From assembly GCA_030668875.1 (NCBI GenBank), contig DAOVER010000016.1, forward strand, positions 1 through 64,000: a stretch of DNA of 64,000 bases, read 5' to 3'. The stretch's first letter is position 1, and each line of letters begins with the position of its first letter. The position numbers were made by a program, and so were the translations under genes. Under the pieces are notes generated by a model that searched no databases, had not been told where the DNA came from, and saw only the letters and a list, made by a program, of their open reading frames with translations. Below, piece after piece: positions 54,688 through 64,000 of the stretch. The stretch comes from Candidatus Heimdallarchaeota archaeon. GTDB lineage: Archaea > Asgardarchaeota > Heimdallarchaeia > Heimdallarchaeales > Heimdallarchaeaceae.

Positions 54688-56436
54688 ATGTTCTTCAGTA
54701 GCAAAATGAAGATTGGTTTAAAATCTATAATGTTCATAATATTTATTATTTCAATTCTATTTTCTTCTATAGTTTACTCGTCATTATATTCTGTGGAACA
54801 TAAACATGATAGTATACTAGCTCAAGTGTCATTAAAAGATTCCTTGATACTTGAAAATCATGATCCAATTATCATTAATAGTGATTCAAATTTAGATGCT
54901 TCAGGATTTCCTGGGAATGGAAATTATGCTGATCCTTACATTATAGAAAATTTTCACATAGTTACAGATGATTATTATTCCATCTCAATTTCAAGCACAT
55001 CAAAATATATTACTATTAGAAGCTGTTATACTGAATCAAAAAATTCAGGAATAAAAATTGATGATACAGTGAGTTTAAACACAGTATTGATTGAAAATAA
55101 TGAATGTAGAAATAGTGTCTATGGAATTAAGATTCGATCTTCCTCTTCAATTATTCAAAATACATGTATTAATAATACCTATGGTATTTCAATTAAAACT
55201 TCACCTAATTCAAAGGTTCATAATAATGAATGTTTAGAGAATAAAGTAATGGGAATAACAATTTCAGGTTCAACAAATTCTGAAGTAAAGAGCAATATTT
55301 GTTCAAATAATAAAAGAGAAGATGGAATTCATATTGACGATTCTCCTAATACAAGAATAGAAGACAATATTTGTGAGAATAATGGCTATAATGGGATTTG
55401 GCTTCGATTTTCTCACTCATCGATTATTTCCTACAATGAATTAACAAATAACGGGTTAACAATCTACGAAGATAATGTGGAGGATTATTTGTCTCACACC
55501 TTTGAAGGCAATAGCGTTAACAATAAAACTCTAGGATTTTTTGAATCCCAAAAGGATATCATACTAGATGAACCAATATATGGCCAAATATTCTTAATAG
55601 ATTGTGAAAATGTCATCGTGGAAAATCAAGAGATTTATGATGCTAGTATAGGAATTAAGGTTCTATATTCCAAGTTTGTAACGATTCGAAATAATATCTG
55701 CAATAAAAATTCTTGGTATGCAGGAATATATATTGATCTCTCTATCGGGTGCAAAGTCATTGATAATGAGTGTTTGTACAATGAAATGACCGGCATACGA
55801 ATCGCATCTTCATTAGATACAACAATAGAAAATAATCTTGTTGTCTATAATAGGATTGGAATTTCTATTGCTTATTCCTTTTTTGCAACAATTATAGATA
55901 ATCAAATACTAAATAATTCTTTTTCGGGATTAAGCGCATATGAAATTAATTCTTCTTATATTTGGAATAATACCTGTTTCAGGAATGACGCAGGAATAGC
56001 TATAGCTGCAACTTCAGATTGTGAAATTGTAGAGAATTTATTCTTAAACAACACATTACATGGTCTAAACTTAAGATACGAGACTTATAACAATACAGTA
56101 CATCACAATGCGTTTGTTGATAACAATATCAATGAATATTCTCAAGCTAAAGATGACGGTGAAGGTAACTTATGGTATGAAGTGAGTTCTGAGGAAGGAA
56201 ATTACTGGTCAAATATTGGACAAAATTATACTTATATGATAGCTGGGAAAGCAAATTCCACAGATCCTTATCCATTATATGAATCACCAATATCAATTGA
56301 ACTTCCAATACTACCTATTCCCCCAGTTATAGATACTGAAGAGGTAATTTTTCAATTCTATCCTATTTACGTAATAGGCTTATTGTTTGTGATCTATATA
56401 TTCAGGAAAAGAAGAAAAAAATGCTGCATTGACTGA
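54688..56436 (+). CDS. NosD-like right-handed beta-helix surface protein
   Basis: The protein has 582 residues: signal peptide (about 8-36), a stretch typical of archaeal surface proteins (IIINSDSNLDASGFPGNGNY, DPYIIENF), then ~18 beta-helix turns such as NTRIEDNICENNGYNGIWL. The end shows GNYWSNIG and DPYPLYESP, then a C-terminal helix and basic KRRKKCC end. It is probably displayed on the cell surface and binds or processes glycans; no catalytic residues assigned. ATG 54706 is a possible later start. It is flanked by 58-bp direct repeats. Confidence 0.88.
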   Translation: MFFSSKMKIGLKSIMFIIFIISILFSSIVYSSLYSVEHKHDSILAQVSLKDSLILENHDPIIINSDSNLDASGFPGNGNYADPYIIENFHIVTDDYYSISISSTSKYITIRSCYTESKNSGIKIDDTVSLNTVLIENNECRNSVYGIKIRSSSSIIQNTCINNTYGISIKTSPNSKVHNNECLENKVMGITISGSTNSEVKSNICSNNKREDGIHIDDSPNTRIEDNICENNGYNGIWLRFSHSSIISYNELTNNGLTIYEDNVEDYLSHTFEGNSVNNKTLGFFESQKDIILDEPIYGQIFLIDCENVIVENQEIYDASIGIKVLYSKFVTIRNNICNKNSWYAGIYIDLSIGCKVIDNECLYNEMTGIRIASSLDTTIENNLVVYNRIGISIAYSFFATIIDNQILNNSFSGLSAYEINSSYIWNNTCFRNDAGIAIAATSDCEIVENLFLNNTLHGLNLRYETYNNTVHHNAFVDNNINEYSQAKDDGEGNLWYEVSSEEGNYWSNIGQNYTYMIAGKANSTDPYPLYESPISIELPILPIPPVIDTEEVIFQFYPIYVIGLLFVIYIFRKRRKKCCID

Positions 56437-56506: not shown

Positions 56507-56638
56507 CTATTCTTTTTACACTTTGCATACTTAATAACATTAAATCTCAAAAAATAACTCCTTAGGTAAACTAAAAGACATACTTTCATATACTCAAATA
56601 AAATATTCATTTTTAATAAATATCTCAGAGGTTTAATC

Positions 56639-57595
56639 TTGTTAAAAGCAGAAAATGTGTCTAAGACCTATCCTATGAATGGTGTAAGAGCTTTAGACAG
56701 TTTTTCTATCGATATTAAACCTGGAGAGATTATGGGGCTATTAGGGCCTAATGGTGCAGGTAAATCAACTTTTGTAAGAATTGCTGTTGGAGTTCTTGAT
56801 AGAGATTCTGGTTCATTGTCAGTTTGCGGATGGGATTCTGATTCAGAGAGAAAGAAGATATCAAATTTAGTTTCATGGATTCCTCAAGAGGGAACTTCTA
56901 AGATGATTCTAAATAGAACTGGTCGAGAGAATATAATCTATTATTCTTGGATAAGAGGTATATCTAGAAAAGAAACAGAAAGAAGAATTGATGAGATTCT
57001 TGAAAAATTAAACATTGAAAAAAAGATATTAAACAAAACCTACCGAATCATGAGTGGAGGACAAAAACAAATAACAAATATTATCAATGGTTTGATAATG
57101 AATGCAAAATTATTATTTTGTGATGAGATATCAGTAAGTATTGATCCGATTATTACTAAGTCAATTTATGATTATCTCAAAGAATACACTTCTAATGGTC
57201 GTTCTGTTCTTCTTACATCACAAAATATATCAGAAGTGGAAAATCTTTCAGATAGAATAGCAATAATACAAACTGGAAAATTAGTGGCACTTGATAAACC
57301 ACGAGAAATTTCTAAAAAAATACTTAAATATGAAATCATCGACTTAAGTTTTGAAAATAGCGTTATAAAAGGTAAGGATTTTTCTAGTTTCAATTTAGAA
57401 TTAGAACAACAAGACTATTTTCGATCAAAAGAGCTAAGTAATAATATTCTTCATATTAGATCCGATAACGCTAATAAATTGCTCAATTCTATCCTTGTTT
57501 TGCTAGAAAAATATTCCCTAAATCCTTCAATAGAATCTGGTAAAGCGAATCTTAGTGTAGCTCTTCAAATGCTGAAAAAGGAGGAGAAAAATTGA
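56639..57595 (+). CDS. ABC transporter ATPase of the peptide locus
   Basis: The protein has 318 residues from TTG 56639. Walker A GPNGAGKST (36-44), signature MSGGQKQ (first residue Leu to Met) and Walker B KLLFCDEIS with catalytic Glu but Ile-Ser where most have Pro-Thr. The C-terminal ~90 residues form the regulatory extension seen in drug or bacteriocin exporters. It overlaps the permease gene by 4 nt. First gene of the locus running to 63682; likely exports its product or gives self-protection. Confidence 0.88.
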   Translation: MLKAENVSKTYPMNGVRALDSFSIDIKPGEIMGLLGPNGAGKSTFVRIAVGVLDRDSGSLSVCGWDSDSERKKISNLVSWIPQEGTSKMILNRTGRENIIYYSWIRGISRKETERRIDEILEKLNIEKKILNKTYRIMSGGQKQITNIINGLIMNAKLLFCDEISVSIDPIITKSIYDYLKEYTSNGRSVLLTSQNISEVENLSDRIAIIQTGKLVALDKPREISKKILKYEIIDLSFENSVIKGKDFSSFNLELEQQDYFRSKELSNNILHIRSDNANKLLNSILVLLEKYSLNPSIESGKANLSVALQMLKKEEKN

Positions 57596-58434
57596 GGACT
57601 TTCTATGCGAATTTCTGGAGAGAAATGAAATACAACCTTGGTCGAAGAGGTGTATGGATGGGAAGACTAGTAAATGTTACTGTCTCCATAATTACAGCAT
57701 TCGCAATGGGGATTATTTATTCTTTTAGTGCTGAAGCTCAAACAACTGTAGGAATAGCAAATGTTGGCTTGTTTCTCTTAACTGGTTTTTTCTTACAGTA
57801 TTTAGTTCTTTCAAGTGTTACAATAGCTCCTAATACTTTTTGGGGTGATATAAGAAGTGGATCTTTCGAATTCATCTTTCACTATGAATTTAGTATCTCT
57901 GAATATATTTTTGGAATTTACTTTGCTCAGTTTATTATAGACTTCGTTATTTCTTTGCCTTTTCTTATTGCAATTATTATCGTAGCAGCAGGACAATCAA
58001 CTCCAGCCATTCTCATCATCTCGTTTATTGGGTTCCTTATTTTTTCGTTCCTGTGTTTATTTTCTATTACAATGTTATACTCTTCTCTTTATGTTCTAAG
58101 TAAACAATTTATGGGTTATCATGGAGCTGTTACTTATATCGCTTATTTCATCTGTGGTGTCTATTTCCCTATTTTAGGATATCTTTCTCTCTTTGGAACA
58201 AAAGCAGGATGGGCGATAATTGGTGTAATTTCTATTCTCCCATATACGCAAGTATTTGACATCGCTAGATACATTATTTTCGGTCAAAATTATGTTCTTG
58301 CTTATCCTACTCTATGGCTAGCTTTTCTAATCATGATTTCTACCTCAGTTATTTTCTATGTCTTATCACTAATCATATTCAGGAAAGGTTTCAAAAATCT
58401 GAGAAAGGAAGGTTTCGCAGCTTACCGTTACTAA
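57592..58434 (+). CDS. ABC-2 type permease of the peptide locus
   Basis: The protein has 280 residues with six helices (about 23-45, 58-82, 105-135, 140-170, 180-205, 240-262), the ABC-2 layout. It starts at TTG 57592, overlapping the ATPase stop. With that ATPase it forms a half-size two-protein exporter, as used for bacteriocins, antibiotics and some RiPPs. Confidence 0.85.
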   Translation: MRTFYANFWREMKYNLGRRGVWMGRLVNVTVSIITAFAMGIIYSFSAEAQTTVGIANVGLFLLTGFFLQYLVLSSVTIAPNTFWGDIRSGSFEFIFHYEFSISEYIFGIYFAQFIIDFVISLPFLIAIIIVAAGQSTPAILIISFIGFLIFSFLCLFSITMLYSSLYVLSKQFMGYHGAVTYIAYFICGVYFPILGYLSLFGTKAGWAIIGVISILPYTQVFDIARYIIFGQNYVLAYPTLWLAFLIMISTSVIFYVLSLIIFRKGFKNLRKEGFAAYRY

Positions 58435-58505
58435 TTTTCTTACACAGAAAATTTAATATCAAGTTATACTACTTTCTAGAAAGAGTTGAATATCGAGGGA
58501 ATAAA

Positions 58506-59606
58506 ATGAATAAGGAAGAACAACCAATAACTCCTACATTACCTTACGTTTTTCAAACCAAAGTTACTCAACAAGGCATTATAACAATCCCCTACACTTT
58601 AAAATTAGATTTAGATAAGCATTATTTGTTCAATTTCCAACCTCTAAAAAGTGAAATCATATATTCCCAGGTTAAACAGATAAAACATTCAGGACAAAGA
58701 CAATATGTTTCTTGTCGAATTAAATCTCCTTTCTTGCAAAAGGGAGATGAAGTAAAGATTACCATAATCAAGGAATTTAAAGCTTCATCAGAGCTTACAT
58801 TTGATGATGATGAAGAGTATTCTCTCTTGTTTAACCAATCTGTTCGATGTTTATTTCTGTACTCTTTTCAAGAGAAAGATGAAATCTTGACTGCAGAGGA
58901 AAGCAAAGACTTTCTATGTGAGTATCCAAATTTCACTCAACAGGAGTTTATCAAAAACTCCCTTGATTTGCTTAGCAAGAAAAACATTTTATTTGAAAAA
59001 GAAGAAGGAGAATTCTTTGATATATTACGTTTTCAAAATTATGCTGTAATTAGGTTTGTTGGAACGAAAAGATTATTGAGTTTTGATATCCTTCAGCAAA
59101 AACCCTCAGAAGAGGCAAAAATTGCCTATGAAACACATATTCCATTTGTCTTCCTTGTTCTAACAAAGATTGATTACCTTCAATTTTTACTCTCTCAACA
59201 TATTAGAACTAGATTCAAACTCTTTCTAGATAAATTTCAAAGTGTATCATCATATCTACCTTATGTGATTAAGGAGTTTTCTTCACTTCTACAGAGTGAA
59301 ATATTTGAGATAATGACCAAGGCTGATGATAGTATAAGAAAATTTAACAGTCTTGATGATGTGAGATTCTGGTTCTTTATACCTGCTGAATATCATGATC
59401 TAATCAAAAAAATCCAGATGGATTTTTACTCAGGAAAGAAATTTGTAATAATAAACGAATTGATAGAATCAATTAAAACTAAAGATGGAAATCTTGAAGC
59501 AAAGCAACTCGTAGTTAATGCAATAGAATGGTTGTATAGGCACCAAGTGATAAATGTAAGAGAGATGGATGGAGAGAAAATAGTGGAGATGTATAAGATT
59601 GAATAA
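58506..59606 (+). CDS. AbrB-like N-terminus plus unknown C-terminal domain
   Basis: The protein has 366 residues from ATG 58506, which has a GAGGGA ribosome site; the upstream in-frame extension overlaps the permease gene and is rejected. Residues ~15-85 read FQTKVTQQGIITIPYTLKLD, the AbrB/SpoVT-type swapped-hairpin pattern that binds DNA. The remaining ~280 residues are helical without known motifs (two segments look like winged helices). It overlaps the ATPase gene by 8 nt. It may be the regulator of the locus, or a partner of the ParA-like protein. Confidence 0.6.
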   Translation: MNKEEQPITPTLPYVFQTKVTQQGIITIPYTLKLDLDKHYLFNFQPLKSEIIYSQVKQIKHSGQRQYVSCRIKSPFLQKGDEVKITIIKEFKASSELTFDDDEEYSLLFNQSVRCLFLYSFQEKDEILTAEESKDFLCEYPNFTQQEFIKNSLDLLSKKNILFEKEEGEFFDILRFQNYAVIRFVGTKRLLSFDILQQKPSEEAKIAYETHIPFVFLVLTKIDYLQFLLSQHIRTRFKLFLDKFQSVSSYLPYVIKEFSSLLQSEIFEIMTKADDSIRKFNSLDDVRFWFFIPAEYHDLIKKIQMDFYSGKKFVIINELIESIKTKDGNLEAKQLVVNAIEWLYRHQVINVREMDGEKIVEMYKIE

Positions 59607-60405
59607 ACAATATAAAAAATTAAATTCTCATGTTATTAGCTTCTATTCATATAGAGGTGGAACAGGAAAATCAACCGTCGCGTCGAACCTTGCTACAGTC
59701 TCTGCAAAAAAACACAAAACAATTCTCGTAGATTTAGATCTCTATTCTCCTCAACTAACATACATCTTTGAGAAAACAAGCAAGAATTACATCAATGATT
59801 ATCTGCACTCCTCGCTCTTCACATCTAAACATGCTAGAAATAGAATTGAAAGCTTAGATGAGGTGATTTGTGAAAGCTCGTTTGAAAACCTTGATCTTAT
59901 ATTAGCAAACCCTAAGATGTCTCTCACTGATAACACAATTTTGCATGATGAAGTAATTACAAAAAAAGTTTTTCCTTGCTTCCAACATATGATAGAATTA
60001 CTCAAAACCCAATATGAAGTAATAATCCTAGATTGCCCTGGAGAATTGAATTACTATACACTTAATGGAATAGCTGTAGCAGATAGAGCGGTAGCAGTAA
60101 GTATACCCACCATAGCTAATGTAAAGGGAATGATAGAATTATTGAAAATTTTTAGTTCTGCACTTCAAGGTAAAAAAACTGATATCATTCTGATGATGAT
60201 AACTCCAAGACCTTCAAAAAAGAAAATAGAGAAATTAGTAGAATGGAAACAAGAACTCGAAAAATTTGAAGTGGAAAATTATCTTTGTTTTGATTATTCA
60301 GAAAACATTGCTTATAGACATCAATTTGAAGATGACTTCTTTTATCTCCCAGAAGAGGAGGAGTATCAGAAATTGGAAGAATACCTGACTGCAATTCTGA
60401 AGTGA
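59599..60405 (+). CDS. ParA/MinD-type ATPase with a modified P-loop
   Basis: The protein has 268 residues from TTG 59599. Deviant Walker A is YRGGTGKST (18-26), with Arg19 where most family members have the signature Lys, followed by ILVDLDLYSPQLT (Walker A') and VIILDCPGEL (Walker B). The rest follows the MinD/ParA fold (ADRAVAVSIPTIANVKGM). Such ATPases position DNA, membranes or protein cargo. The overlap with both neighbours ties it to the radical SAM enzyme. Its role in a peptide pathway is unknown. Confidence 0.85.
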   Translation: MNKQYKKLNSHVISFYSYRGGTGKSTVASNLATVSAKKHKTILVDLDLYSPQLTYIFEKTSKNYINDYLHSSLFTSKHARNRIESLDEVICESSFENLDLILANPKMSLTDNTILHDEVITKKVFPCFQHMIELLKTQYEVIILDCPGELNYYTLNGIAVADRAVAVSIPTIANVKGMIELLKIFSSALQGKKTDIILMMITPRPSKKKIEKLVEWKQELEKFEVENYLCFDYSENIAYRHQFEDDFFYLPEEEEYQKLEEYLTAILK

Positions 60406-61724
60406 CTAACATGGAACTCAAAACTCTGCTTTCGGTAAAGAAAAAGGATAAATGGATACATTATAATCTGATAAACCAAACAATGGTAAAAACTTCTCTT
60501 TCTCCAACAGAGTTAGATAGATCTCCTTCAGATATCAAAGAAGAGCTGTTGTATGGTACAGATAAAGAAATGCTAATAGAATCTCACAAGCTATATTATC
60601 AAAAAATAAAGAAGGAAATGATGAAGAAAAGAGAGTTGAATTCTCCTTTTCTATCAAGAAGTGAAGTTAATCTAACTCTATGGTATGATTGTAACTTTGA
60701 TTGTCCATATTGTTACCAACAAGAAGAATATTATGCTGGAGCAAAAGAAAGCGATAAAATCAATATAGAGAAGACCTTAGAATTCTTTAGAAATAAATCA
60801 AAAAATGATGAATTTCCTCCAAAAACTGTTGTTTTCATAGGAGGTGAACCTTTACTAAAAGGTAAGAGAAATAGAGATACTATAATAACACTAATGGGAT
60901 ATCTCAATGAACACTTTCCTGGAATTGAAATACACGTCATCTCAAATGGTTATCTTTTAGGTGAGTATGCTGAAACCCTTTCTAAATTCAAGGATTTGAA
61001 TTTCGTATTGACAATTACTCTGGGTTCTACAAGAAAAAACCACAAGTATGAAAGAATTCTCAAAACCAATAATTCAGTAGATACTTTTGAGCAAATCTTC
61101 GTAGGTATGAAGGAATTCAGAAAAAAAATTCCTAAGGGTTGGATTAATATTAGAATGAATTTTGCAAAGGATTACAGAGAAGTAGATGATACAAAGGAAT
61201 TGATGTATCTGATTAAAAAAGAAATACCAGATGTAAGATTTGAACTCTCTCCAGTAGTTTCATTTTCGAATCATCAAGAAATTGGCTTAGGGTTTTTCAA
61301 ATTGCTTAAGGATTTAATGTCAAATGAGGTTTTTTCTAAGTCCTTCGTAATGAAACTAAATGACAATCTATACTTCTTACTACGCAATTCAATTCCACAA
61401 CTAGAAAATAAGGAAATTTCATCAAAACCAAAAATATGCAATGCAGTTTCTTTTACAACAAACTATGATTTGTTCTCAGACTTCCAAATTCAACCTTGTG
61501 AGGATTTTAGATATTATAAGAGAATAGATGTGGATGATTTGAAAATATCAGATCTCTTCTTAGAATCTCTTGATAAGAGAGTAGAGCAATGTATAGATTG
61601 CCCTTTTTTTGTAGGTTGTATTTCAAATCCATGTAAAATAATAAAAAGAAAAACTATAGCGAAAAAAGTATGCTATGAAAAAGAATTATTACCACTCTTT
61701 CAAATAATTGAAGAATTTTATTGA
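60402..61724 (+). CDS. SPASM radical SAM enzyme of the peptide locus
   Basis: The protein has 440 residues from GTG 60402 (ATG 60411 also possible). Site CNFDCPYCY (Cys97, 101, 104) binds the SAM cluster; FIGGEP is at 145-150. The C-terminus has the full seven-Cys SPASM set: 346, 366, 397, 400, 406, 411 and 424. SPASM enzymes modify ribosomal peptides (sactionine, ranthipeptide, PQQ-type and others) or act on enzymes. The gene lies 55 nt before the small two-Cys peptide gene, its best substrate candidate. The N-terminal ~85 residues may bind the leader; no clear RRE is seen. Confidence 0.88.
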   Translation: MTNMELKTLLSVKKKDKWIHYNLINQTMVKTSLSPTELDRSPSDIKEELLYGTDKEMLIESHKLYYQKIKKEMMKKRELNSPFLSRSEVNLTLWYDCNFDCPYCYQQEEYYAGAKESDKINIEKTLEFFRNKSKNDEFPPKTVVFIGGEPLLKGKRNRDTIITLMGYLNEHFPGIEIHVISNGYLLGEYAETLSKFKDLNFVLTITLGSTRKNHKYERILKTNNSVDTFEQIFVGMKEFRKKIPKGWINIRMNFAKDYREVDDTKELMYLIKKEIPDVRFELSPVVSFSNHQEIGLGFFKLLKDLMSNEVFSKSFVMKLNDNLYFLLRNSIPQLENKEISSKPKICNAVSFTTNYDLFSDFQIQPCEDFRYYKRIDVDDLKISDLFLESLDKRVEQCIDCPFFVGCISNPCKIIKRKTIAKKVCYEKELLPLFQIIEEFY

Positions 61725-61737
61725 ACTATAAAAGGGA

Positions 61738-61748
61738 ATATATTTAAA
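61738..61748 (+). promoter_or_regulatory. Strong TATA box for the small peptide gene
   Basis: ATATATTTAAA lies in the 55-nt gap between the radical SAM stop (61724) and the peptide ATG (61780), about 32-42 nt ahead of it, just right for an archaeal promoter with a short leader. It suggests extra expression of the peptide over the enzyme, as expected for a precursor. Confidence 0.65.
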
Positions 61749-61779
61749 AGAGCGAGTGTCATTAATGTAACAAGGTGCT

Positions 61780-61968
61780 ATGATGGGAAGAAAAGATAAG
61801 AAAACAGAAGAAAACACAGCATTTGAAGTGCTTTTACGAAATACCAGTGGTGTAAACCCTGGTATTGAAACAGTTTATGATCCTCCAGGTGATCTGCCAG
61901 GAAATTGTAACCAATCTACAGCAAATCTTTCTGTTCGATCCTCAGTCTGTGATATTTTACTGATGTAA
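61780..61968 (+). CDS. 62-residue candidate RiPP precursor peptide
   Basis: The peptide starts MMGRKDKKTEENTAFEVLLR, a charged leader with an AFEVLL helix, and goes on to a Gly/Pro-rich part (NPGIETVYDPPGDLPGN) and a Ser/Thr/Asn/Cys-rich end (Cys43 ... Cys57, DILLM). There are two Cys only, both in the last third, where radical SAM thioether or other links could form. It has its own TATA box and an AAGGTG ribosome site 5 nt before the ATG. No known family recognised. It lies between the SPASM enzyme and a helical-repeat gene. Confidence 0.7.
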   Translation: MMGRKDKKTEENTAFEVLLRNTSGVNPGIETVYDPPGDLPGNCNQSTANLSVRSSVCDILLM

Positions 61969-61993
61969 TAAGGTGGTACTATGAGGAGAATTG

Positions 61994-63682
61994 GTGTTTA
62001 AAATACTATTCTCTTTCATTTACTTGAAGAAAAATCATCCTTTAAGGGAGAGTGTACTAGAATCTAGTAAACTTTTTTGTAATTATTCAGCTTCAGATTC
62101 TGATTTGATAGAATCAGCAAGAAAGTTACTAAAAATTTCAAAAAACCATCAGCTAAAGGACGAAGAATTGTTTACAATAAAATCTACAGTAGATTGTATT
62201 GAAGTTTTTCTAAGGGATTATGACTTTAAGAGATTTGATGAAATTTGTGCAAAAGCAAAGACTGGAGGATATCTTGAAAGTTATGTTGATTTATTACTCT
62301 TAAAGGGTTTCATTCTATGTTCTTCCAGTATGTCTGGAATAAATCGTGCTTTTAGAATAAGAGAAAAAGAGAAAATTTTTACTTCATTGAATGAAATTGG
62401 TGTGGAAGAGAACATCTATCTAGACTTAATATATGGGAAGTATCTCTTCATCAAGGGAGATGAGAAACAAGCTGCAATACTTTATGAAAAACTAAAAAAC
62501 AAAATTGATCAGGATGATTGTGCTGCTAAAGTTATTCTCTTGAATCTTCTCTTCTGTATATACGAGCGAGATCCTACCAAACAGCTTGCTATTATACAAG
62601 AAGGTTTGAATGGAACTTGCTTCTATTGGAATTTCGTTATTCAATATATTGACTTTTTAACACAAAGAGGAAGATATGTTGAACTAATAAACGAAGGTTC
62701 TATTTTTTTGCATAAACTAAATGAAAACAATGAAGAAAATAGAATTCCTAATGAACTTAATATTTTGGACCATATGATAAAAGCATCCTTTAAATTGAAT
62801 GAGCAAGATAAATTGCATAATTATTGTCATCAATTTAGGAAATCTCTAGACACACTTCCCGAGGATGATCATGGTATGAAAAAAAATTACGCGTTTCTTC
62901 AATTCACACATGAGGTTTTATATCAAGTACTTTTTGAAGAGGAATTACTAATTGATTTGAGTGAAAAAACTATCCTCAATTATAGCACAAATCATTATCT
63001 GAAAATGTTGAGGTCATTTCTTATCCTGAACCCATTAATAAGTAGGTTGATACAAGATAATGAATTTGATCAAGCTTTTACTTATATAAACAATATCGAA
63101 AGAGGAAAAGGTTATTCTAGCTCTACTGATGATTTATTAACTTTCATTAAAAATTTCTTTCTTTCACTTCTTATTGATAAATCACTAAAATGGAAGAAGT
63201 ACAACAGTAAAAACTATGAAGGGGATCAGACTGAAGTAGCGTTAACCTATTTAGAAGAAGCTGTTGCATATCTGGGTGAACTTGATTATTCATTCAAAAT
63301 AGCATCTATTCTTCAAGAAATTATCTTGAAATCTAGATTAGGTAGATTAGACGAAGTAAAAGAAACAGTTTTAGATGAAATACTGCTAACTGAAGGTTAT
63401 GATCGTATACTTTCATTGATGGTATCACTGCTATACTATTCGGGTAAAGAGGAGATAGATAAATATCGGCAAATCAAAGAGATATTACTCTACGAACTTG
63501 ACAAATATAGAAACTTGAATTCTTATACTACATGGAAAAAACATCTAAGTGATATCTTTTCATTCTTAGATGTCAAAGACAAAGTTCTCTCTACAAAGAA
63601 AACATCATTTTTAGATATAGAACAAATCAAATCCTATACATCTTTCTTACAAAATCAGCTTAACAAACAACTGATTCAGTAA
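61994..63682 (+). CDS. TPR-like helical-repeat protein
   Basis: The protein has about 562 residues from GTG 61994 (TTG 61991 possible), after a GAGGAG ribosome site. It is nearly all helix pairs of TPR-like length (for example LDLIYGKYLFIKGDEKQAAI, LNLLFCIYERDPTKQLAII), suggesting a superhelical protein-binding scaffold. No enzyme or membrane motif. The leader before it resembles the one before the peptide gene (AAGGTG then ATG), and a six-codon ORF (MRRIGV) overlaps its start. It closes the locus and may hold the peptide or the enzymes together. Confidence 0.75.
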   Translation: MFKILFSFIYLKKNHPLRESVLESSKLFCNYSASDSDLIESARKLLKISKNHQLKDEELFTIKSTVDCIEVFLRDYDFKRFDEICAKAKTGGYLESYVDLLLLKGFILCSSSMSGINRAFRIREKEKIFTSLNEIGVEENIYLDLIYGKYLFIKGDEKQAAILYEKLKNKIDQDDCAAKVILLNLLFCIYERDPTKQLAIIQEGLNGTCFYWNFVIQYIDFLTQRGRYVELINEGSIFLHKLNENNEENRIPNELNILDHMIKASFKLNEQDKLHNYCHQFRKSLDTLPEDDHGMKKNYAFLQFTHEVLYQVLFEEELLIDLSEKTILNYSTNHYLKMLRSFLILNPLISRLIQDNEFDQAFTYINNIERGKGYSSSTDDLLTFIKNFFLSLLIDKSLKWKKYNSKNYEGDQTEVALTYLEEAVAYLGELDYSFKIASILQEIILKSRLGRLDEVKETVLDEILLTEGYDRILSLMVSLLYYSGKEEIDKYRQIKEILLYELDKYRNLNSYTTWKKHLSDIFSFLDVKDKVLSTKKTSFLDIEQIKSYTSFLQNQLNKQLIQ

Positions 63683-63939
63683 GAGCAAATAAGTTTTCAC
63701 AGATTTTTCTTTTAAAAACTATATAAAGATGAAACAAAAATTTTCAAATAAGCGAAATTTAGTGGTTTTTTTAGCAAAGAATTATTTTGCCACTTTTTTT
63801 GTATGTTCTTTTTAAAACCCTTTTTTGATATTTATATCTCTTTGAGAATTGTTGTATAGTTCTCTCAGCCTCTTCTAAGGAAGATAGTTGGAGAGGACCA
63901 TAAATGAATAAACAATAAAAAACAAAAAAAGTGAAAAAA
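63683..63939. other. Spacer after the peptide locus
   Basis: About 250 nt, very AT-rich with T-runs (63708-63716, 63787-63803 and 63820-63828) that could end the locus transcript. It also holds the promoter of the gene entering at the window end. Confidence 0.4.
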
Positions 63940-64000
63940 ATGAAAAACGCGAAAAAAACAATTGTCCTCGTAACGTTTTTTATTACAATTTTTTTAGCAA
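63940..64000 (+). CDS. 5' end of a secreted or membrane protein (partial)
   Basis: ATG 63940 (or GTG 63931 in the same frame) opens MKNAKKTIVLVTFFITIFLA, a signal peptide of basic start and hydrophobic core. The frame is open to the window edge. The rest lies outside, so product unknown. Confidence 0.6.
   Translation, partial: MKNAKKTIVLVTFFITIFLA

Follow-up and report, generated by a model that had tools for sequence, protein, structure and literature searches.

A candidate radical SAM/SPASM peptide cluster in an Asgard archaeon, joined to an apparently undescribed winged-helix–ATPase module

No archaea are closer relatives of eukaryotes than the Asgard archaea. A 66-kb contig from one of the Heimdall type (DAOVER010000016.1; its first 64,000 nt are the window analysed here) carries a compact block of seven genes at positions 56639-63682. 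All seven are open frames on the + strand, as are the other features of the block, and among named relatives the locus is closest to Candidatus Heimdallarchaeota records. The genes encode, in order: an ATP-binding cassette (ABC) transporter ATPase; an ABC-2-type permease; P0003, a three-domain protein with a predicted winged helix-turn-helix (wHTH); P0004, a MinD/ParA-like ATPase; a radical S-adenosylmethionine (SAM)/SPASM enzyme; a short candidate precursor peptide; and a helical-repeat-like protein. Neighbours overlap by 4 nt (ABC ATPase/permease), 8 nt (P0003/P0004), and 4 nt (P0004/radical SAM), and a gap of 55 nt separates the radical SAM gene from the peptide gene. An earlier note, made from the letters of this DNA alone, had proposed a modified-peptide pathway here. 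Its account of the seven same-strand frames and their overlaps, of a seven-Cys SPASM enzyme 55 nt before a peptide gene (61 or 62 residues) with its own TATA box, and of a ParA/MinD-like ATPase is borne out.

The enzyme, a candidate peptide maturase (60402-61724), matches the Pfam family Radical_SAM at 52.6 bits and carries the CxxxCxxC motif at residues 97-104 (Cys 97, 101, and 104; 60690-60713). A SPASM-like region at 61437-61673 contributes seven further Cys residues (346, 366, 397, 400, 406, 411, and 424) in the pattern C-x19-C ... Cx2Cx5Cx4C ... C. The Cx2Cx5Cx4C part has four residues in its last gap, where Cx3 is canonical, and lacks the Gly between its first two Cys residues; its spacing is identical in two related loci, L007 and L008. 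The top NCBIfam models for the enzyme are the peptide maturases CefB, Clo7bot, and PapB, and the best PDB profile match is CteB (5wgg, E 9e-10). Foldseek aligns CteB with the AlphaFold2 model over 341 columns and ranks viperin first, over ~250 columns. The model is of moderate confidence (mean predicted local distance difference test, pLDDT, 67), with values of ~80 at residues 10-73. This N-terminal part (residues 9-73; 60426-60620) is predicted to form strands at residues 9-14, 17-22, and 27-31, followed by helices at residues 35-40, 43-49, and 55-73. Three strands and then three helices is the arrangement of the RiPP recognition element (RRE; RiPP, ribosomally synthesized and post-translationally modified peptide) (PMC6231123), and the model thus predicts a leader-binding RRE topology for the enzyme N-terminus. 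In CteB itself the first auxiliary cluster has an open site (PMC6231123), and the seven SPASM-region Cys residues are one short of the eight needed for full ligation of both auxiliary clusters. Cys-based chemistry is plausible for this enzyme; by analogy with the open site of CteB, the missing eighth ligand and the two invariant Cys residues of the peptide would make a Cys thioether bridge the likeliest form.

The candidate precursor (61783-61968) has 61 aa, or 62 from the first ATG at 61780; the second ATG (61783) is most likely the start, because the relatives align from there. It belongs to a family of four (one member in the window, one in L007, and two in L008), whose alignment reveals three shared features: two invariant Cys residues 13 residues apart (Cys42, 61906-61908, and Cys56, 61948-61950, in the window peptide); the motif SxR[ST]xxC[DS][IV]; and an N-terminal strand, [TS]F[EK][VI][LI]. 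The L007 peptide has a third Cys not shared by the others. The C-termini read CDILLM, CDILLW, CSVITLGRG, and CSVLSLG, so none has an FxSxx end. Leave-out profiles, each made from one peptide group, picked out nothing but the members of the remaining loci from a set of 2093 frames (E 1e-7 to 3e-3); the profile of the two L008 peptides found just those of the window and L007. The window peptide scores 16.9 bits against a best of 12.9 among 20,000 of its own shuffles. A short precursor is co-conserved with the enzyme in 3/3 complete loci. The large genes are all under strong purifying selection (omega 0.08-0.19); the peptide evolves faster, at an omega of 0.63-0.71 that is a rough estimate from a short sequence and lies below neutrality, and this would fit a fast-evolving precursor. 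Weak peptide matches in other genomes were rejected: when all frames were read, those in G003, G006, and G187 proved interrupted, and the enzyme is absent from every genome with such a match.

A TATA-like promoter box lies before the peptide gene at 61739-61749. Like boxes stand ~35-45 nt 5' of the start in all four peptide genes, those of L007 and both L008 peptides included; since the genome has a GC content of ~31%, the boxes alone are weak evidence. An imperfect inverted repeat, ATACTTT-n-AAAGTAT, occurs by operon starts and peptide promoters (window 56580-56606; L007 3736-3762; L008 11529-11553 and 11852-11872). It was picked post hoc and its spacing is variable, and no claim is made for it.

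Homologues were sought in 57 relatives and then in 228 Asgard genomes, many of them incomplete, so that absence from any single genome is not certain. Four copies were found: that of the window; L007 (G004:C75); L008 (G005:C76); and a contig-cut copy, G000:C20, in the same genome as the window. Enzyme, peptide, P0003, and helical-repeat protein co-occur in 3/228 genomes, all of one genus, and at the thresholds used none of the four was found in the others. The window DNA from 56578 to 63673 matches L007 at 83.8%, and similarity ends at the limits of the seven-gene block. Beyond the block it is confined to two short single-copy stretches further upstream, which suggest a shared ancestral position of both loci. 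The earlier note had proposed to check whether homologous loci have a short peptide in the same place. Both relatives carry the two-Cys peptide: its gene occupies the same place in L007, and in L008, a diverged third locus, it is duplicated and both paralogues lie 3' of the helical-repeat gene. The note had also held that homologous loci lacking a small frame near the SPASM gene would count against a peptide pathway, and neither of the two complete relatives is of that kind. An ATPase search of an 84,980-species genome set returned only two Heimdallarchaeota records, both already found. Viral contigs searched with ATPase and enzyme gave no match, nor did a phage search with P0003, and a plasmid search with P0004 returned ordinary partition-type proteins only. 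(Directly 3' of the cluster in G004, at L007:11234-14352, lie Type I-like cas genes: a CXXC-CXXC protein, Csa2/DevR, and Cas5.)

Between exporter and enzyme genes lie P0003 (58506-59606) and P0004 (59599-60405). The AlphaFold2 model of P0003 (mean pLDDT 72.9) comprises three domains: a barrel at residues 14-91; a profilin/longin-like domain at residues 113-274; and a winged helix at residues 294-362. Its Foldseek matches include the barrel of 2glw (target-normalized TM-score, TMt, 0.65), the Lokiarchaeal longin 8yqg (probability 0.99), CodY, wHTH proteins, and the segregation proteins TubR and AspA. P0003 has no Pfam or NCBIfam match, and thus no AbrB-type domain by that measure; the barrel is predicted to be of the cradle-loop/RIFT type, and its AbrB/SpoVT likeness is one of predicted structure. 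The label "AbrB-like" in the earlier note is accordingly imprecise. P0004 matches AAA_31 at 77.3 bits (cut-off 27), and its PDB profile matches are ParA/MinD. Its deviant Walker A motif, SYRGGTGKST, keeps the P-loop Lys; in each of the four homologues, Arg replaces the signature Lys. In all four copies of the cluster, genes of the P0003 and P0004 types adjoin the enzyme gene, overlapping or abutting.

This pair also occurs without the enzyme. G022, a single-contig genome from a sister genus of the same family, encodes three P0003-like/P0004-like pairs with no enzyme (P0003-side A1 profile, E 2.6e-5 to 4e-8; P0004-side A2 profile, E 4e-28 to 2.5e-32). The pair is therefore a general Asgard module and not the mark of a special RiPP class that the earlier note had seen in it. 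Another 27 relatives of the ParA-like protein were read with ~1.5 kb of flank each, and 17 of them sit 3' of a co-directional partner that looks related or bears a wHTH. One of these partners is a G022 protein; eight are of a longin-like + wHTH type; seven are shorter wHTH proteins whose N-terminus differs and reads as ribbon-helix-helix-like; and the last, of another kind, lies at 110 nt. Similarity between the longin-like + wHTH and shorter wHTH families is weak (E 3e-6 to 9e-3), and the C-terminal half of P0003 matches both. A 683-aa protein in G024 (L090) joins apparent barrel and wHTH parts to the ATPase, with firm profiles for the ATPase part only, and is probably a natural fusion of module parts. 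The wHTH-ATPase pair thus appears to be a separate, undescribed Asgard module that carries other N-terminal domains across the Heimdall class. The three G022 pairs (L078, L079, and L080) are each near PadR-like and PD-(D/E)XK nuclease frames, which suggests spread as an element. In several genomes a longin-like/wHTH + ParA-like pair stands beside genes resembling archaeal A-type ATPase subunits (L082, L083, and L085), possibly a housekeeping version.

The ABC transporter ATPase (56639-57595), the first gene of the conserved block, is DrrA/NodI-like: it matches ABC_tran at 87.6 bits (Pfam) and TIGR01188 at 175.9 bits, under the family cut-off (NCBIfam). It is 87% identical to the L007 version and is also present in L008. 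The permease (57592-58434) matches PF01061 weakly (E 0.14) and has several transmembrane segments, with 6-8 hydrophobic segments by hydropathy; a peptidase domain was not found in it. The ABC-2 exporter of the earlier note is thus present as the first two genes, and its absence 5' of the G000:C20 copy means that it may not be core. The 563-aa helical-repeat-like protein (61991-63682), seen only in these loci, has no Pfam or NCBIfam family and matches a designed pentatricopeptide-repeat protein weakly; the label "TPR-like" (tetratricopeptide repeat), for which neither database gives a profile match, was too specific. Next on the + strand begins a 713-aa secreted protein (63931-64000 in the window, to contig position 66072; L006:1932-4073) with a signal-like N-terminus, a hydrophobic mid-segment, and a Big_7 domain. 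Its only full-length relative in the 228 genomes is at L008:12522-14444, so that it is found at two of the three loci. It was rejected as a core part and is classed as accessory because it is missing beside L007. Just 5' of the cluster (window 54688-56436) lies a gene for a secreted NosD/right-handed beta-helix protein, not seen at the other loci.

We read the block as a SPASM-modified RiPP-type cluster making a small two-Cys peptide, with a probability of about 0.7. Residues ~1-35 of the peptide would be the leader, with a [TS]F[EK][VI][LI] strand to which the RRE-like part of the enzyme would bind; modification by the enzyme would then fall on the core, the C-x13-C segment at the C-terminus. 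Export is probably the task of the ABC pair, host proteases may trim the peptide, and the helical-repeat protein is probably a binding partner of either the peptide or the enzyme. P0003 and P0004 most likely act as an ATP-driven DNA-binding switch, attached to the operon, that probably adjusts its expression to some cell state. Gene content, conservation, co-occurrence, the peptide family, and the independence of the module are shown directly; the RRE and the P0003 domains are predictions, and modification, export, and control are inferred. Several observations weigh against this reading. The enzyme scores far below all curated maturase cut-offs (best, 54.7 bits against 600), CefB, Clo7bot, PapB, SCIFF, and FxsB included, and viperin and MoaA models match its core too. 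The L008 peptides do not adjoin the enzyme gene. The G000:C20 copy has no ABC genes upstream, and neither peptide nor helical-repeat gene is seen there, the contig stopping inside the enzyme gene. No double-Gly or other recognizable cleavage site was found in the peptides, and a leader peptidase gene (common in RiPP clusters, not obligatory) is absent from the conserved block at every locus. Finally, the Foldseek matches of P0003 are individually weak (E > 0.001 throughout).

Could the block instead be a conflict or partition element, with P0003-P0004 serving as a segregation or anti-element pair of the plasmid type and the enzyme and peptide together as an effector? Its patchy presence inside one genus, the nuclease frames beside the G022 copies, and TubR and AspA among the P0003 fold matches all point that way. 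So does a literature parallel, the FxSxx-COOH systems, which include a MinD/ParA-like domain and TPRs (PMC7159879). Yet the remainder of the window looks chromosomal, judged by its reading frames; the peptide does not end in FxSxx, and genes for vWA, MoxR, TIR, and NB-ARC are all absent; the FxsB model gives the enzyme 32.1 bits against a cut-off of 370; and PADLOC has no match for P0003, P0006, or P0007. We consider such an element unlikely. (Assignment to a defence system is unsupported, the matches being generic only: viperin, ATPase, and ABC.)

The remaining alternatives reassign single proteins. The peptide might act without modification, as a signal or a small regulatory protein, and the enzyme might mature another protein of the locus, such as the Big_7 or helical-repeat protein, in the style of a sulfatase maturase. 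Sulfatase-maturase models do match the enzyme core, and the full-length secreted protein is present at two of the three loci, but it is absent beside L007, whereas the peptide is present in all three. Moreover, the enzyme carries the predicted RRE-like N-terminus, to our knowledge not a sulfatase-maturase feature, and we regard this alternative as quite improbable. P0004, as a SIMIBI-family protein adjoining an Fe-S enzyme, might also serve to load the radical SAM protein as an Fe-S carrier of the Mrp/Nbp35 kind. This role is disfavoured by the lack of a conserved Cys (no CxxC or other invariant Cys across the four homologues); related ATPases elsewhere, moreover, pair with wHTH proteins and have no adjoining Fe-S enzyme. 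It is very improbable.

The RiPP-type reading, then, keeps the core of what the earlier note had proposed (a peptide family in homologous loci, a maturase-like enzyme, a predicted RRE topology) and drops the ParA/AbrB-like pair as a class mark. Radical-SAM RiPP clusters have been recorded in a survey of archaeal genomes, Asgard ones among them, without known Asgard products (PMC12144867), so the kind of pathway is already known; this cluster architecture was not found described in the open-licence literature searched. The cluster thus appears to combine a pathway of a known kind with an Asgard wHTH-ATPase module that seems to be undescribed. A bolder proposal is tentative, and we doubt it: a new RiPP class of archaea, with production of a radical-SAM-modified two-Cys peptide under the direct control of a ParA-like ATPase and its barrel/longin/wHTH partner, the pair being drawn from an undescribed Asgard wHTH + ParA-like family that plugs into different gene sets. 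Either way, the locus offers a compact, testable case of a probable Asgard RiPP pathway whose precursor sequences are defined. It further brings to light a pair that recurs in Asgard archaea, in which the N-terminal domains of a wHTH protein are interchangeable and a ParA-like ATPase stands beside it; here the pair is tied to a peptide pathway.

For the enzyme, the closest known systems are the CteB-type thioether maturases (5wgg; CefB, Clo7bot, PapB). These share with it a radical SAM core, a seven-Cys SPASM region, a short Cys-containing peptide nearby, and, as predicted here, an RRE-like N-terminus. The Asgard enzyme differs in scoring far below their cut-offs, in a last SPASM gap of x4 rather than x3, in a peptide with two conserved Cys residues only, in its archaeal host, and in the extra wHTH-ATPase pair and helical-repeat protein. 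For the gene mix, the closest are the FxSxx-COOH systems of actinobacteria (PMC7159879), whose loci likewise bring together a SPASM enzyme, a fast-evolving short peptide, helical repeats, and a MinD/ParA-like domain. Here, by contrast, there is no FxSxx C-terminus and no metallopeptidase, TIR, AP-ATPase, or vWA gene, and the ATPase, the product of its own gene, retains the P-loop Lys and is paired with a wHTH protein.

The module has parallels of its own. Like ParA modules with a DNA-binding partner (plasmid partition, MinD family), it encodes a deviant Walker A ATPase together with a DNA-binding-like protein; unlike them, it has Arg for the signature Lys, a partner with barrel and longin-like domains, and a place in a chromosomal operon with an enzyme. 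(Centromere-like repeats were not seen here, and no search was aimed at them.) The predicted profilin/longin-like middle domain of P0003 recalls Asgard longin/roadblock proteins, with 8yqg among its best fold matches. In P0003, however, that domain shares a chain with a barrel and a wHTH, and its partner gene encodes a ParA-like ATPase, not a small GTPase.

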